From Pseudomonadota bacterium (GTDB taxonomy: Bacteria > Pseudomonadota > Gammaproteobacteria > Xanthomonadales > Xanthomonadaceae), in NCBI GenBank assembly GCA_018241125.1, contig JAFEEL010000001.1, positions 1 to 50,320 of the forward strand: a stretch of 50,320 nt of DNA, written 5' to 3'. The position numbers and the translations under genes were made by a program. Of the stretch, positions 2,980 through 41,567 are shown piece by piece. The notes under the pieces are model-generated. The model saw only the letters and a list, made by a program, of their open reading frames with translations. It was not told the origin of the DNA and did no database searches. Every line of letters begins with the position of its first letter. Positions within the stretch are counted from its first letter, which is position 1.

Positions 2980-3041
2980 CGGTGTTCGCGACAAGTTCGC
3001 ACAACCCACCGTGGGCAGACGGCCACCAGGGCGGTATGCAC

Positions 3042-3047
3042 TAGAAT
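3042..3047 (+). promoter_or_regulatory. Candidate -10 element for a leaderless ntrB transcript
   Basis: TAGAAT ends 6 bases before the ATG at 3054, which would place the transcription start on or very near the A of the start codon. No Shine-Dalgarno sequence lies upstream of this ATG, consistent with a leaderless message. No convincing -35 box at standard spacing was found, so this is only a candidate. Confidence 0.35.
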
Positions 3048-3053
3048 GGTGCA

Positions 3054-4094
3054 ATGTCCGTTGCGCCCGCCCTCGACCAGCTCGCCACGCCCATCGTCTG
3101 GGCCGCTGCCGATGGTCGCATCGCGGGCTGCAACGCGGCCTTCGCGCGCTGGTTGGGGGTGAGCGGGCGGCGGCTGCTCGGCGCGGCGCTGGCCGATCTG
3201 GACGCCGAGCCGGGGCGCATCGCCGGCCTGTTCGATCGCTTGCCGGAAGACGGCGCGCCGCTGCGGGTGCGGCGGGCGCGCCTGCGCGCGCCGGGCGGGG
3301 CGGAGTGTTTCGCCGATTTGTTGCTGGCCCGCGATGGCGACGGCCTGCGCATCGAGGTACACCCGGCCGACGAGTTTCCCGGCGAAGACCCCGCCGGCGC
3401 GCTGCCGGCGGCGCTGCATGCCGCGCTCAAGGGGCTGGCGCATGAAATCCGCAATCCGCTGGCGGGCTTGAAGGGCGCGGCGCAACTGCTGGCGCGACGG
3501 GCCGCCGTGCGGCTGGACAACGACGAGGAGCGTGAGCTGATCGACCTGATCGGCGAGGAAGTGCAGCGGCTGGCGAGCCTGCTGGAGCGGCTGGTCGACC
3601 CGTCCCCGCCGCGCGCGTTCGAGGCGGTCAACATCCACGCCGTGCTCGAGCGCGTGCGCGTGCTGGCCGCCGCCGATGCCGGCTGGGCGGTGAAGATCGA
3701 GCGCGATTACGACCCCAGCCTGCCGGCGACCTGCGGCGATCCCGACCGCCTCGTGCAGGCGCTGTGGAACCTGTTGCGCAACGCCATCCAGTCCGGCGCC
3801 GGCAACGTGGGCCTGCGCACCCGTGCCGAGCACGGCGTGCTGATCGGCGAGGTGGCGCACAAGCTGGCGCTGCGGGTGGAGATCGTCGACGACGGTCGCG
3901 GCGTGCCCGAGGATCTGGCCGAGCGCATATTCCTGCCGCTGGTTTCAGGCCGCGCCGAGGGGTCGGGACTGGGGCTGGCGCTGGCGCAGCAGGTCGCCCG
4001 CGAGCACGCCGGTGCGCTCAGCTACCGTTCGCGCCCGGGGCACACGGTGTTCACCTTGCTGATACCCGTGACGGATGAAATCGAGGTCAAGTGA
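3054..4094 (+). CDS. glnL: Nitrogen regulation sensor histidine kinase NtrB
   Basis: 346-residue cytoplasmic histidine kinase without membrane segments, as expected for NtrB/NRII, which phosphorylates or dephosphorylates NtrC according to nitrogen status relayed by PII. Visible domains: PAS at about 5-100; HisKA with phospho-acceptor H130 in GLAHEIRNPLAGLKGAAQLL; HATPase_c with N-box WNLLRNAIQSG, G1 DDGRGVPEDL and G2 GSGLGLALAQ. Length is typical. The ntrC gene follows after a 139-bp gap that holds a REP-like palindrome. The start has no Shine-Dalgarno sequence but has TAGAAT just upstream. Confidence is high because the cytoplasmic PAS-kinase is paired with a sigma-54 activator. Confidence 0.93.
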   Translation: MSVAPALDQLATPIVWAAADGRIAGCNAAFARWLGVSGRRLLGAALADLDAEPGRIAGLFDRLPEDGAPLRVRRARLRAPGGAECFADLLLARDGDGLRIEVHPADEFPGEDPAGALPAALHAALKGLAHEIRNPLAGLKGAAQLLARRAAVRLDNDEERELIDLIGEEVQRLASLLERLVDPSPPRAFEAVNIHAVLERVRVLAAADAGWAVKIERDYDPSLPATCGDPDRLVQALWNLLRNAIQSGAGNVGLRTRAEHGVLIGEVAHKLALRVEIVDDGRGVPEDLAERIFLPLVSGRAEGSGLGLALAQQVAREHAGALSYRSRPGHTVFTLLIPVTDEIEVK

Positions 4095-25685: not shown

Positions 25686-26108
25686 AGGTGGGGTGGCGAG
25701 AAGTGCCGCCTGAGGAATCCCGCAACTGCGGCACGTGCAACGTCCGTGGCTTCGTTCGCCCCTCACCCCCACCCGCACCCCGGCCATCGCAAATAGCGCG
25801 ATGGCGCTCATCGGTGCGCGAACCCGTGGTTCGCCAGCGCGCCGCTTCGCCCCGAAGGGAGAGGGGCTTTGCCACGCCCTTCTCCCATCGGGAGAAGGTG
25901 GCGCGAAGCGCCGGATGAGGGGGTGAAGCAATTCGGAGTGCATATACAACGCTCGGTGCCATTTGCCCTTCACCCGCACCCCGACCACTGCGCGCCGCTT
26001 CGGCCCGAAGAGAGCGATGAGCGCTGCTGCAACGCAACATGACGCGACCGGCTGCGCAGGCCATGCTACCCGGCCCCTCGCGGGCACCCATCCCAACGCG
26101 AATCCGCC
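25686..26108. repeat. 423-bp spacer filled by REP-like repeats
   Basis: No gene is seen. From 25759 to 25925 there is a compound element: CCCCTCACCCCCACCC arm, an internal insertion-like stretch, CCCGAAGGGAGAGGGG, CCTTCTCCC-atc-GGGAGAAGG and a terminal CGGATGAGGGGG. A second partial element (CTTCACCCGCACCCCGACC) lies at about 25969-26010. Together they resemble two family copies facing each other. They precede the third POT gene by about 100 bp. Confidence 0.75.
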
Positions 26109-28300: not shown

Positions 28301-28329
28301 TTGCGGATGGTTGCATATGAAACTATCAT
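28301..28329 (+). promoter_or_regulatory. hppD promoter with MarR operator in its spacer
   Basis: -35 TTGCGG (28301-28306), 17-bp spacer, -10 TATCAT (28324-28329), start near 28336. The spacer holds an imperfect palindrome GTTGCATATGAAAC (28310-28323), symmetric at 12 of 14 positions, a typical MarR-site layout. A bound dimer would block RNA polymerase at hppD and lies just upstream of marR, so autoregulation is likely. Inferred from sequence only. Confidence 0.6.
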
Positions 28330-28364
28330 CGTCGCTTCCTTCCCGCAAGCCACGCGAGCACGCC

Positions 28365-29477
28365 ATGAACGCACAGGCGCAGACCCAGTCGACCAACATC
28401 GGAATGCAGCCCACCACCTTCGCCAACCCGATGGGCATCGATGGTTTCGAGTTCGTCGAGTTCGCTGCCCCCGACGCCGCCGGCGTGGCCGCGCTGCACG
28501 CGCTGTTCGGCCGCATGGGCTTCACCGCCGCGCTGCGCCACAAGAGCCGGCCGATCACCGTCTATCGTCAAGGCGGGATCAACCTGCTGCTCAACGAGGA
28601 GCCCGATTCGTTCGCGTCGGATTTCGCCAAGGCGCACGGGCCGTGTGCCTGTGGCTTCGCGATCCGCGTGGCGCGTCCGGCGCTGGGCGTGCGTGACGAG
28701 GTGCTCGCGCGCGGCGGCGAGGCGATCGGCCACCACGAAACCAGCAAGGCGGTGCCGGCACCGGTGGTCAAGGGCATCGGCGATTGCATGCTGTATCTGG
28801 TGGATCGCTACGGCGAGGCCGGCAGCATCTACGATTTCGACTACGAGCCCATTCCCGGCGCGGCGGCAAATCCGCAGGGCTTCGGGTTGACCTTCATCGA
28901 CCACCTCACCCACAACCTGTATTTCGGCAACATGGAGAAGTGGGCGGACTACTACGAGAAGCTGTTCAACTTCCGCGAGATCCGCTACTTCGACATCAAG
29001 GGCGCCAAGACCGGGCTGGTGTCCAAGGCGATGACCGCACCGGACGGCATCGTGCGCATCCCGCTCAACCAGTCCTCTGATCCCAAGAGCCAGATCAACG
29101 AATACCTCGACCAGTACAAAGGCGAGGGCATCCAGCACATCGCCCTGTTCACCGACGACATCTACGCGACGGTGGAGGCGATGCACGCGGCCGGTGTGGA
29201 GTTCCTCGACACCCCCGACACCTATTTCGACGTGGTGGATCTGCGCATCCCGAACAACGGCGAGGACGTGCCGCGGCTGCGCAAGAACAAGATCCTGATC
29301 GACGCCGATCCGGAAACCAAGCAGCGCAAGTTGTTGCAGATCTTCACCCAGAACTGCATCGGCCCGATCTTCTTCGAGATCATCCAGCGCAAGGGCAACG
29401 AAGGCTTCGGCGAAGGCAACTTCCAGGCCCTGTTCGAATCCATCGAACGCGACCAGATGAAGCGCGGGGTGTTGTAG
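28365..29477 (+). CDS. hppD: 4-hydroxyphenylpyruvate dioxygenase
   Basis: 370 residues. Fe(II) enzyme converting 4-hydroxyphenylpyruvate to homogentisate in tyrosine and phenylalanine breakdown. Two vicinal-oxygen-chelate halves with iron ligands H180 (DHLTHNLYFGN), H258 (IQHIALFTDD) and E338 (FFEIIQRKG); the C-terminal gate helix GFGEGNFQALFESIERDQ is present. ATG 28365 is the family-like start; 18 upstream codons are in frame but lie over the promoter. The leader just before the ATG (CGCGAGCACGCC) is identical to that of rnk. hmgA, the next enzyme, lies 650 bp downstream past the DUF559 gene. Confidence 0.96.
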   Translation: MNAQAQTQSTNIGMQPTTFANPMGIDGFEFVEFAAPDAAGVAALHALFGRMGFTAALRHKSRPITVYRQGGINLLLNEEPDSFASDFAKAHGPCACGFAIRVARPALGVRDEVLARGGEAIGHHETSKAVPAPVVKGIGDCMLYLVDRYGEAGSIYDFDYEPIPGAAANPQGFGLTFIDHLTHNLYFGNMEKWADYYEKLFNFREIRYFDIKGAKTGLVSKAMTAPDGIVRIPLNQSSDPKSQINEYLDQYKGEGIQHIALFTDDIYATVEAMHAAGVEFLDTPDTYFDVVDLRIPNNGEDVPRLRKNKILIDADPETKQRKLLQIFTQNCIGPIFFEIIQRKGNEGFGEGNFQALFESIERDQMKRGVL

Positions 29478-29504
29478 TTGCGAACGAAGCGGGCGCTTCT
29501 CTAG

Positions 29505-29540
29505 CCCCTCTCCCATCGGGAGAGGGGTTGGGGTGAGGGG
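29505..29540. repeat. REP-like element, inverted orientation, left of the DUF559 gene
   Basis: CCCCTCTCCC (29505-29514), loop ATC, GGGAGAGGGG (29518-29527), then TTGGGGTGAGGGG. Its reverse complement matches the copy at 29928-29963 almost base for base, so the DUF559 gene sits between two inverted copies. Confidence 0.88.
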
Positions 29541-29570
29541 CAAAGGCCACGCAGTCACGACAGGACGCCA

Positions 29571-29978
29571 ATGCCTACACACCTCCGACCACCCAATGCG
29601 ACCTTGAATCTGGAGCGCTCGCGCGAGCTGCGGCAGTCCCTGACCGACGCCGAACGCGAACTATGGTTCCACCTGAGGGGCCGCCGACTGCAAGGTCTGA
29701 AGTTTCGTCGCCAGCATTCGATCCCGCCTTACTTCGTGGATTTCTTCTGTGAGCAGGCGAAGCTGGTGGTCGAACTGGATGGCTCGCAACACGACGAAAT
29801 GACCGACGCTGCGCGTACTCGATTTCTTGAAGCATGCGGACTGCGGGTGCTGCGGTTCTGGGATAACGAGGCGTTGACGGAAACGGAAGCGGTGCTCGAA
29901 GCGATCTTGAACGCTATCGGGCATCCACCCCTCACCCCCACCCCTCTCCCGTTGGGAGAGGGGCTTCAAGACAAATGA
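29571..29978 (+). CDS. DUF559 endonuclease-fold protein
   Basis: 135 residues. The DUF559 core is complete: LRQSLTDAERELWFHLRGRR, LKFRRQHSIPPYFVDFFC, LVVELDGSQHD and GLRVLRFWDNEAL. The FVDFFC...VVELDGSQH arrangement corresponds to the acidic D...ExD-type site of Vsr/restriction-like nucleases (inference). The C-terminal tail [18 protein letters not shown] is translated from a REP-like repeat. ATG 29571 lacks a strong ribosome binding site. It interrupts the hppD-hmgA pair. Cellular role unknown; repair or mobility of the associated repeats are possibilities. Confidence 0.88.
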   Translation: MPTHLRPPNATLNLERSRELRQSLTDAERELWFHLRGRRLQGLKFRRQHSIPPYFVDFFCEQAKLVVELDGSQHDEMTDAARTRFLEACGLRVLRFWDNEALTETEAVLEAILNAIGHPPLTPTPLPLGEGLQDK

Positions 29979-30117
29979 ACGCTATCGGGCATCCACCCCT
30001 CACCCCCACCCCTCTCCCGACGGGAGAGGGGCTCAACAGCAAGCGATCTTGAACGTATTCGGCCCACAACCCCTCACCCCCACCCCTCTCCCGTTGGGAG
30101 AGGGGCTTCAAGACAAA
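29900..30117. repeat. Three copies of the DUF559 3' end fused to a REP-like element
   Basis: Unit 1 (29900-29975, 76 bp) is the end of the DUF559 gene plus the palindrome, with the stop codon directly after it. Unit 2 (about 29976-30040) repeats GAACGCTATCGGGCATCCA and the palindrome (loop differs: GAC versus GTT; 68-bp offset). Unit 3 (30042-30117, 76 bp) repeats AGCGATCTTGAACG, the palindrome and CTTCAAGACAAA with scattered substitutions. Unit 3 ends 10 bp before the hmgA start codon. Confidence 0.9.
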
Positions 30118-30127
30118 GGCCATTGAA

Positions 30128-31435
30128 ATGTCCGCGACGACGCATCACCACGGCTATATGACCGGCTTCGGCAACGAGTTCGCCAGCGAGGCCATCCCCG
30201 GCGCGCTGCCGGTCGGGCACAACTCGCCGCAGGCTGCGCCCTTCGGCTTGTACGCCGAGCAGCTCACCGGCACCGCGTTCACCGCGCCGCGCCACGCCAA
30301 TCGCCGCAGTTGGCTGTACCGCATCCGCCCGGCGGCGGTGCACGGCGAGTTTTCGTTGCTCGACCATGCACACTTCCACAACCGTTTCGGCGACGGCCCG
30401 ACCACGCCGGCGCAGCTGCGCTGGAGTCCGCGTCCGTTGCCGGCGCAACCAACCGATTTCATCGACGGCTTGTTTACCGTCGCCGGCAACGGCGGCCCGG
30501 CGGCGCAGGCCGGCATCGGCATCCACCTGTACGCCTGCAATCGCTCGATGCAGATGCGCTTTTTCTGCGATGCCGACGGCGAGCTGCTGATCGTGCCGCA
30601 GCAAGGGCGCCTGCGCATCGAGACCGAACTGGGCGTGCTGGACATCGAGCCGCAGCAGATCGCGGTGATCCCGCGCGGCATCCGCTTCCGCGTGCACCTG
30701 CCCGACGGCCACGCCCGCGGCTACGTGTGCGAGAACTTCGGGGCGATGCTCAAGCTGCCCGATCTGGGGCCGATCGGCAGCAACGGGTTGGCCAACCCGC
30801 GCGATTTCGAGTATCCGGTGGCCGCGTTCGAGGATGTCGAGGGCGACTTCGAACTGGTGACCAAATTCCAGGGCCACCTGTGGCGCGCGGCGATCGGTCA
30901 TAGCCCGCTGGACGTGGTGGCGTGGCACGGCAACTGCGCGCCGTATCGCTACGACTTGCGCCGCTTCAACGTGATCGGCTCGATCAGCTACGACCACCCG
31001 GATCCGTCGATCTTCCTCGTGCTGCACTCGCCGTCGGATACGCCAGGCACCAGCAACGTGGATTTCGCGATCTTCCCGCCGCGTTGGCTGGTCGCGCAGG
31101 ATACGTTCCGGCCGCCGTGGTTCCACCGCAACATCGCCAGCGAGTTCATGGGACTGGTGCATGGGGTGTACGACGCCAAGGCCGAAGGCTTCCTGCCCGG
31201 CGGCTGCTCGTTGCACAACTGCATGAGCGCGCACGGGCCGGATGCGGCGACGTTCGAGAAAGCCACCGGCGCCGACCTGTCCCGGCCCGATGTCATCGCC
31301 GATACCATGGCGATCATGTTCGAGACCCGTGCGGTGATCCATCCGACCGCACAGGCGCTGGCCGCGCCCGAGCGGCAGGCGAACTACGCCGATTGCTGGC
31401 AGGGGTTGCGCAAGCACTTCACGCCGCCGGCATAA
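30128..31435 (+). CDS. hmgA: Homogentisate 1,2-dioxygenase
   Basis: 435 residues. It opens the ring of homogentisate to maleylacetoacetate. Opening [19 protein letters not shown] and iron ligands H333, E339 ([17 protein letters not shown]) and H369 (SAHGPD) match the family, as does length. The maleylacetoacetate isomerase and fumarylacetoacetase genes are not in the window. The start at ATG 30128 follows AAGG at about 9 bp, at the edge of the third repeat unit, so expression may depend on read-through or a promoter in repeat DNA. Confidence 0.96.
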
Positions 31436-41399: not shown

Positions 41400-41567
41400 G
41401 CCACTCTGCCTGCGGGAGAGGGGTGGGGGTGAGGGACAGGATTCTTCATCGCGCCCGCACTCGCGGCTTCCATCCACAAGCGTGCTTGGCAGGTGCGCAG
41501 ACATGTTCGCAATCCAACCCCTCATCCGGCGCTGCCGCGCCACCTTCTCCCGATGGGAGAAGGGCAA
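41400..41567. repeat. Pair of REP-like elements in opposite orientation inside the Kor operon
   Basis: A degenerate inverted copy (41400-41435, GGGAGAGGGGTGGGGGTGAGGG) and a direct copy (41518-41567, CCCCTCATCCGG...CCTTCTCCC-gat-GGGAGAAGG). They fill most of the 205-bp gap between the GltD-like gene and korA. The direct copy ends 16 bp before the korA ATG. Confidence 0.82.

Follow-up and report, generated by a model that had tools for sequence, protein, structure and literature searches.

The window, by which we mean the whole 50,320-nt stretch analysed here (positions 1 to 50,320 of contig JAFEEL010000001.1, assembly GCA_018241125.1, from a Xanthomonadaceae bacterium), carries a gene of the DUF559 family between hppD and hmgA. 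This gene, whose product belongs to the YcjD-like PD-(D/E)XK nucleases, is framed by two inverted copies, here called arms, of a repeat that is dispersed through the genome. A repeat search of the window found the arms to be 38 nt each, 95% complementary and 387 nt apart, which confirms the inverted, near-complementary elements described in an earlier note made from the letters of the sequence. As that note had also said, the right copy lies in the coding end and supplies the C-terminal tail of the protein, the final DUF559 codons traversing the right arm. The features of the locus are as follows.

29503..29540, + strand: left arm, 38 nt; hairpin CCCCTCTCCC-ATC-GGGAGAGGGG, then third-strand tail TTGGGGTGAGGGG, tail gene-ward
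29571..29978, + strand: DUF559 gene, YcjD-like PD-(D/E)XK nuclease family, 135 aa
29613-29918: DUF559 domain within the gene, from a profile match
29928..29965, - strand: right arm, 38 nt, inverted, tail gene-ward, coding for the C-terminal tail
29996..30033, - strand: second right-arm copy, from the repeat search
30070..30107, - strand: third right-arm copy, from the repeat search
29899..30117, no strand given: tandem triplication of the DUF559 3' end and right arm, in 68- and 74-nt steps
28311..29477, + strand: hppD, upstream neighbour, longest frame, named as in the earlier note
30128..31435, + strand: hmgA, downstream neighbour, named as in the earlier note

The triplicated 3' end of the DUF559 gene is a local amplification at the motif. 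With up to two mismatches allowed, the palindrome core CCTCTCCCNNNGGGAGAGG occurs nine times in the window against an expectation of 0.01, and the source genome holds five DUF559 genes. There is also a variant palindrome family in the window, CTTCTCCC...GGGAGAAG, at 196-214, 25879-25897 and 41544-41562.

The DUF559 protein

The product matches PF04480 with 134.2 bits, against a curated cut-off of 20.6, and its only further Pfam match, to MTES_1575 REase, lies below the cut-off of that family. The Vsr/restriction-like nuclease fold named in the earlier note is borne out both by this match and by fold comparison: the protein has a PD-(D/E)XK/Vsr-like fold with conserved acidic and histidine residues, and the putative catalytic residues D57, E68, D70 and H74 are conserved and present. 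Beyond DUF559 itself the top fold match is the catalytic domain of I-Bth0305I, and Vsr is also among the nearest solved folds, so that these two are the closest outside the family if a mitoribosomal protein with a Z similar to that of Vsr is set aside. Vsr takes part in the repair of T:G mismatches and I-Bth0305I in intron homing, whereas the window DUF559 is framed by triplex motifs (see below), a framing that to our knowledge neither of the two has. Family, fold and conserved residues are those of YcjD/DUF559 (PF04480; structure 3hrl), which is annotated as a putative nuclease, whereas here it is linked to a specific DNA motif. A role in a defence system was considered and set aside, PADLOC giving just a weak DpdF match of 16.6 bits.

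Estimated by NG86, with dS near saturation, dN/dS was 0.11-0.24 in 14 of 18 pairs of DUF559 genes and 0.35 and 0.43 in two pairs from arm-less loci, and two pairs were uninterpretable. The ratios hint that selection on DUF559 may be relaxed where the arms are lost, the highest values being those of the two arm-less pairs only.

Bracketing of DUF559 genes in other genomes

DUF559 was sought in 100 genomes, the source genome and 99 relatives, and was matched in 55 of them. At each locus the 300 bp upstream of the domain were aligned to the reverse complement of the 300 bp downstream, with a threshold score of 18; the controls were random positions in the same regions rather than size-matched genes. 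Twelve of the 106 matches were excluded first as short or weak, and 4 of the remaining 94 were excluded from the main count for their short flanks. A first batch gave 43 of 60 loci at score 18 against 8 of 1800 controls, and among all usable loci 59 of 90 were bracketed, compared with 10 of 2700 control positions, so that the enrichment beyond genomic density for which the earlier note had proposed a check is indeed present. Because their neighbours show many of these loci to be orthologous, we grouped them by flanking genes, which gave 32 chromosomal contexts, 21 of them with a bracketed locus.

The bracketing extends beyond these relatives. In a phylum-wide draw the score was reached by 14 of 28 loci and by 2 of 165 shifted controls, a control set in which some positions still touched arms. 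We also took a named sample of 80 loci from at least 590 candidate stretches, ranked with a query that has the repeat-encoded tail, and 54 of the 73 with full flanks reached the score, as did 1 of 2190 controls. Results for the C-terminal (C) side in this sample are inflated because the tail of the ranking query is itself repeat-encoded; where the tail was unmatched by the query, 8 of 17 loci were bracketed. Bracketed named loci include records titled Chloroflexi, Planctomycetota, Deltaproteobacteria, Gastranaerophilales and Rickettsiales, although several records in the sample are metagenome bins and their labels may be wrong. The association between DUF559 and the repeat is near certain.

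Two side observations concern DUF559 loci. In one context DUF559 is framed by arms of another family, CCCCCCTTTTTCAAAGGGGGG, which have a CCCCCC tract on the outside (L199, L210); their complement is by eye readable as a triplex as well, with its tail outward. A P. aeruginosa record (L327, about 3001-3249) has a DUF559-like stretch after gtrS for which the PLSDB table, an incomplete one, lists no gene.

The arms as intrastrand triplex motifs

Holder et al. 2015 (PMC4666352) describe the intrastrand triplex motif, formerly BoxC or PIT, as a hairpin with an antiparallel third strand lying against its purine strand. Both arms in the window have this build, a hairpin of at least 7 bp with a legal antiparallel third strand, and score 10 on each side, with 10 of 10 triads legal in the left arm. 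As in BoxC/PIT/TM there are many dispersed copies, a strict 21-mer from the arm having 41 copies in the 3.07-Mb genome and its reversed control none. Judged by its letters, the window arm is a BoxC/PIT/TM intrastrand triplex motif, of which 23 copies were counted in E. coli; the E. coli motif is reported to form a triplex in solution (PMC4666352). It shares with BoxC/PIT/TM (Hoyne and Maher 2000, 2002, cited in PMC4666352) the hairpin with mirror third strand and the inverted pairs, and the motif letters printed in PMC4666352 agree with those of the repeat found near ycjD in E. coli. The motif was published there as an orphan, with flanking genes that share no function and no mobility gene found, and the main text of that paper, in contrast to the present analysis, never mentions DUF559, ycjD or a nuclease. 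The GGGAATC heptamer (PMC4692102) is a different repeat, and an Rfam scan of five loci had tRNA as its sole match. For arms with two hairpins, a relation to rhizobial mosaic elements (RIME) was considered as a possibility.

The usual plan in bracketed loci is palindrome outside and G-rich tail toward the gene, both arms usually being of one subfamily. From the end of the domain to the right arm the median distance is 11 nt, and the stop codon lies within or past the right arm in 46 of 63 bracketed loci, which explains the repeat-encoded C-terminal tail that was first seen in the window. The arm subfamilies diverge strongly in sequence (CTCTCCC, CCTTCCCCC, CCCTCCCTTTCGC and others). In 74 of 101 arms of bracketed loci the tail could serve its own stem as a legal third strand, with a score of at least 8, compared with 2.1% for shuffled tails and 16% for tails from other stems. 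Pairs of stem / third strand from distant bacteria, with the third strands reversed, are GGGGGAAGG / GGGGGTAGG, GGGGGAGGA / GGGGGTGGA, AGGAGAGGG / TGGAGAGGG and GGGAAAGA / GGGATAGA. Third strands covary with stems across arms. The arm has four G runs and a G-quadruplex was therefore considered, but the triplex is favoured because the tail covaries with the stem.

When the motif was sought by rule, it was found in either flank of 68 of the 90 loci and in both flanks of 38, compared with 21 of 1800 control segments, the tail pointing inward in 94 flanks and outward in 12. The same scan of 62 named loci (18 of the 80 were excluded, namely the 12 top xanthomonad-like ones and 6 at contig ends) found it in either flank of 51 and in both of 30, against 12 of 902 control segments, with 54 tails inward and 18 outward. 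On the N-terminal (N) side, which is beyond query coverage, 43 of these 62 loci had the motif.

The dispersed repeat population

We counted three subfamily patterns (A, B and C), picked from arms at bracketed loci, across the same set of genomes. The source genome was left out, five genomes with weak DUF559 matches were scored negative, and the counts were transcribed by hand; one variant of the motif is identical when read backwards, which is why the reversed-pattern controls gave counts above zero in many genomes. With kinship ignored, the repeat was present in 43 of 49 DUF559-positive relatives (1034 copies) and in 6 of 50 negative ones (20 copies), and within the family of the source organism in 35 of 37 positive and 5 of 22 negative genomes. 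The six negative exceptions are G004, G048, G055 and G060 with pattern A, G041 with pattern B and G039 with ten copies of pattern C. For a single pattern in the phylum draw the figures, again ignoring kinship, transcribed by hand and with reversed-pattern controls above zero in many genomes, were 75 of 109 genomes with strong DUF559 matches and 28 of 288 others. The dispersed motif population often far exceeds two copies per DUF559 gene, one genome having 127 copies of pattern A alongside just one DUF559 gene.

Inward, REPIN-like pairs occur among the dispersed copies. All six pairs listed for G002 at a spacing of 68-70 bp join an N-side variant, GGGCAGGATGGGGG, to a C-side variant, TTGGGATGGGGG, a pairing that resembles the two ends around DUF559 in its genus. 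Among the positions listed, 6 of 7 inward pairs that are 350-500 bp apart enclose DUF559. The seventh (G026, C1:1152987-1153430; L229, about 588-1050) has inward A-type arms around other DNA in which no DUF559 frame was seen; this unit of DUF559 size is possibly a non-autonomous relative. C-type motifs also stand in direct tandem arrays in G022, where the steps are often about 155 or 180 bp, and in G020 (part in L241).

Residency of the gene

Grouped by single linkage, which may chain, 72 of 94 DUF559 loci fall in 10 contexts common to at least two genomes, and because of this the gene looks like a resident of the RAYT kind and not a freely moving element. With one query, tblastn found DUF559 in 42 of 72,556 plasmid records, some of them chromosome-sized, and in 2 of 50,697 phage records. 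A mobile transposon is made less attractive by the shared contexts and by this rarity on plasmids and phages, though the small number of contexts that are strict clades (three of ten) leaves it some room. Chromosomal place and protein lineage agree only in part, and the largest context retains arms at 9 of 22 loci.

The earlier note had the unit interrupting hppD and hmgA. This wording is too strong: the gene lies between the two, and DUF559 is at the same place in 16 genomes including the source and is therefore an old resident there. The comparison of hppD-hmgA spacers that the note had suggested did not refute its idea, and neither did the enrichment test: all 16 loci retain matching arms and the 16 copies form one clade. 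The 24 gene-less spacers have a solo palindrome in 4 cases (G001, G003, G046, G048), a single motif in 2 (G007, G042), a pair in 1 (G058) and something else in 17. The solo palindrome of G048 is as expected of a lineage that lost DUF559. An unrelated inverted repeat, of GTAGGGCGGG..GACCCGCC type, fills the spacer in G012 and G041 (L171, L177), so that another repeat family uses the same place.

ycjD and the motif in E. coli

E. coli ycjD sits between sapF and fabI, and a query spanning this region was at least 80% covered in 3333 of 5426 E. coli genomes. Two ycjD-less strains that were inspected have an efflux operon after sapF; ycjD and the efflux operon are alternatives at this place (L329, L330), and exchange there is described in PMC12817139. 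In one E. coli record a motif directly follows ycjD and a second lies farther on; of the 13 strict copies in this record, 2 are within 300 bp downstream of the gene. We then compared 117 strains taken at even steps down two rankings, with query coverage as the sign of ycjD and one short record (H281) excluded. The median number of matches per strain, a lower bound in some strains, was 35 in the 72 strains with ycjD and 9 in the 45 without, and no strain with ycjD had 10 matches or fewer, compared with 25 without.

Comparison with other repeat systems

The proposal of the earlier note that DUF559 and its palindrome form a unit analogous to RAYT and the repetitive extragenic palindromic (REP) sequences is supported by the bracketing and by repeats that track DUF559 and not RAYT. 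Like the REPtron (RAYT/TnpAREP with GTAG REPs), the unit combines a resident gene for a nuclease with inverted palindromic repeats on both sides of it, and there are dispersed repeats that include inverted pairs and whose presence follows the gene. It differs in its enzyme, which is of the PD-(D/E)XK/Vsr-fold DUF559 family whereas that of the REPtron is an HUH Y1 transposase, and in its arms, which have a third strand for an intrastrand triplex and no GTAG tag: of 102 arms, one had GTAG or CTAC outside the hairpin at up to 8 nt from it, and one had it inside. The repeat is a BoxC/PIT motif instead of a GTAG-type REP. RAYT presence also fails to predict it, the repeat occurring in 35 of 64 genomes positive for RAYT (PF01797) and 14 of 35 negative ones. 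We considered RAYT as the spreader of the motif and did not retain it on this result; the test is coarse because PF01797 also covers IS200-type enzymes.

Untagged REP families exist, and the CGTC type is likewise palindromic and is reported to be without a dedicated transposase (Di Nocera 2013, PMC3733652). For these REPs, unlike the repeat described here, we found no enzyme partner proposed in that paper, from whose main text DUF is absent.

Interpretation and alternative explanations

The explanation that we prefer, at a probability of roughly 0.58, is that a resident Vsr/homing-endonuclease-like DUF559 gene is framed by inverted triplex motifs and that its protein would recognise the folded motif, nick it, and either maintain or spread it. 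Catalysis by DUF559 on the motif is what we infer. The enzyme could recognise the motif in single-stranded form, such as on the lagging strand, once it has folded into a hairpin or triplex, and could nick it at or close to the foot. Copying repair of the break would then keep both arms alike and, in trans, would spread copies of the motif as well as REPIN-like inverted pairs; loss of the gene would leave solo palindromes.

A number of observations weigh against this explanation. The inverted-arm score was missed by 31 of the 90 loci, including 13 of 22 in the largest context, and was reached by none of six plasmid-collection loci (from E. coli, two Azospirillum, N. gonorrhoeae, P. aeruginosa and K. 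pneumoniae), most of which have motif-like stretches nearby. The single phylum-wide pattern is missing from 34 of the 109 strong DUF559 genomes, 8 genomes without a DUF559 match hold at least 10 and up to 140 copies, and G007, without a DUF559 match or patterns A-C, has one motif in its hppD-hmgA spacer. The counts that associate gene and repeat all ignore phylogeny. Close pairs among the positions listed were direct in 53 cases, inward in 19 and outward in 6. Strict clades make up 3 of the 10 shared contexts in an unsupported tree of about 100 residues, and at hppD-hmgA, the sole place inspected, there was no target-site duplication or clean empty site. With orthologous sites removed, arm similarity tracks DUF559 relatedness weakly (rho -0.249; 2 of 2000 permutations as strong), and the nearest foreign arm beats the same-genome arm in 22 of 38 cases; coevolution of arm and protein beyond orthologous sites is weak and is not used as a main argument. 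Several ycjD-less E. coli keep 25-37 matches, and O157 without ycjD keep 26. The E. coli correlation supports the link between gene and repeat in a suggestive way only, because the split follows lineages. Footprinting in vivo showed no stable triplex (Holder et al., PMC4666352).

It is possible, though we consider it unlikely, that DUF559 is instead a homing-like selfish gene that cuts bare palindromes into which the unit is then copied, so that the dispersed motifs would be targets and not products. The closeness of the fold to the catalytic domain of the homing endonuclease I-Bth0305I would fit, as would the one solo palindrome in each of the gene-less spacers of G001, G003, G046 and G048, and with strict protein clades in the minority among the contexts, some movement is conceivable. 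However, with 72 of 94 loci in shared contexts and the 16 hppD-hmgA copies in one clade, the pattern speaks for old presence and losses, and genomes without DUF559 mostly lack the target motifs too.

Slightly less probable still is a structure-specific repair or clearance enzyme that removes DNA folded into a triplex or hairpin at replication forks, the gene being retained in motif-rich genomes while another enzyme spreads the motif and the copies beside DUF559 are autoregulatory or accidental. The superfamily to which DUF559 belongs also includes Vsr, MutH and Holliday-junction nucleases, which work in repair or on branched DNA (PMC1189080), and motif loci are unstable in E. coli (PMC4666352). 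Such an enzyme gives no account of the bracketing by two motifs of the same subfamily with mostly inward tails, and RAYT, the obvious alternative spreader, is unassociated with the repeat. That motifs merely settle by small dispensable genes or act as terminators, with no biochemical link, is very improbable: the stop codon in or past the right arm would be a possible place for a terminator, but random control positions in the same regions are almost never bracketed, gene and repeat co-occur at genome level, stems and third strands covary, and neither promoter nor terminator activity was seen in earlier work that PMC4666352 quotes.

Beyond the preferred explanation, we put forward more tentatively, and at somewhat less than even odds, that DUF559 may be the founding enzyme of a widespread repeat-nuclease class that reads triplex foldability and not sequence, and that BoxC/PIT/TM in E. 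coli, Neisseria and others may be its trans-spread products. Recognition by foldability is proposed because the overall design stays the same across phyla even as stem and third strand change together.

Significance

Both the repeat and the protein family were known before, and their partnership appears to be new; our literature searches, with subscription papers and preprints outside their scope, found no paper linking DUF559 to this repeat. The results suggest DUF559 as the missing partner of repeats that have been known since the 1990s. They provide a specific candidate enzyme for the BoxC/PIT/TM repeats, one with a solved relative (3hrl), and ycjD in E. coli K-12 together with natural ycjD-less strains is a ready experimental system. 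If the partnership is true, it would be a second RAYT-like pairing of repeat and nuclease, with an unrelated fold and possibly reading DNA by its triple-helical shape. Protein annotations that end in a repeat-encoded tail, among them the tail PHPNPLPQAGEG, would be explained as well.
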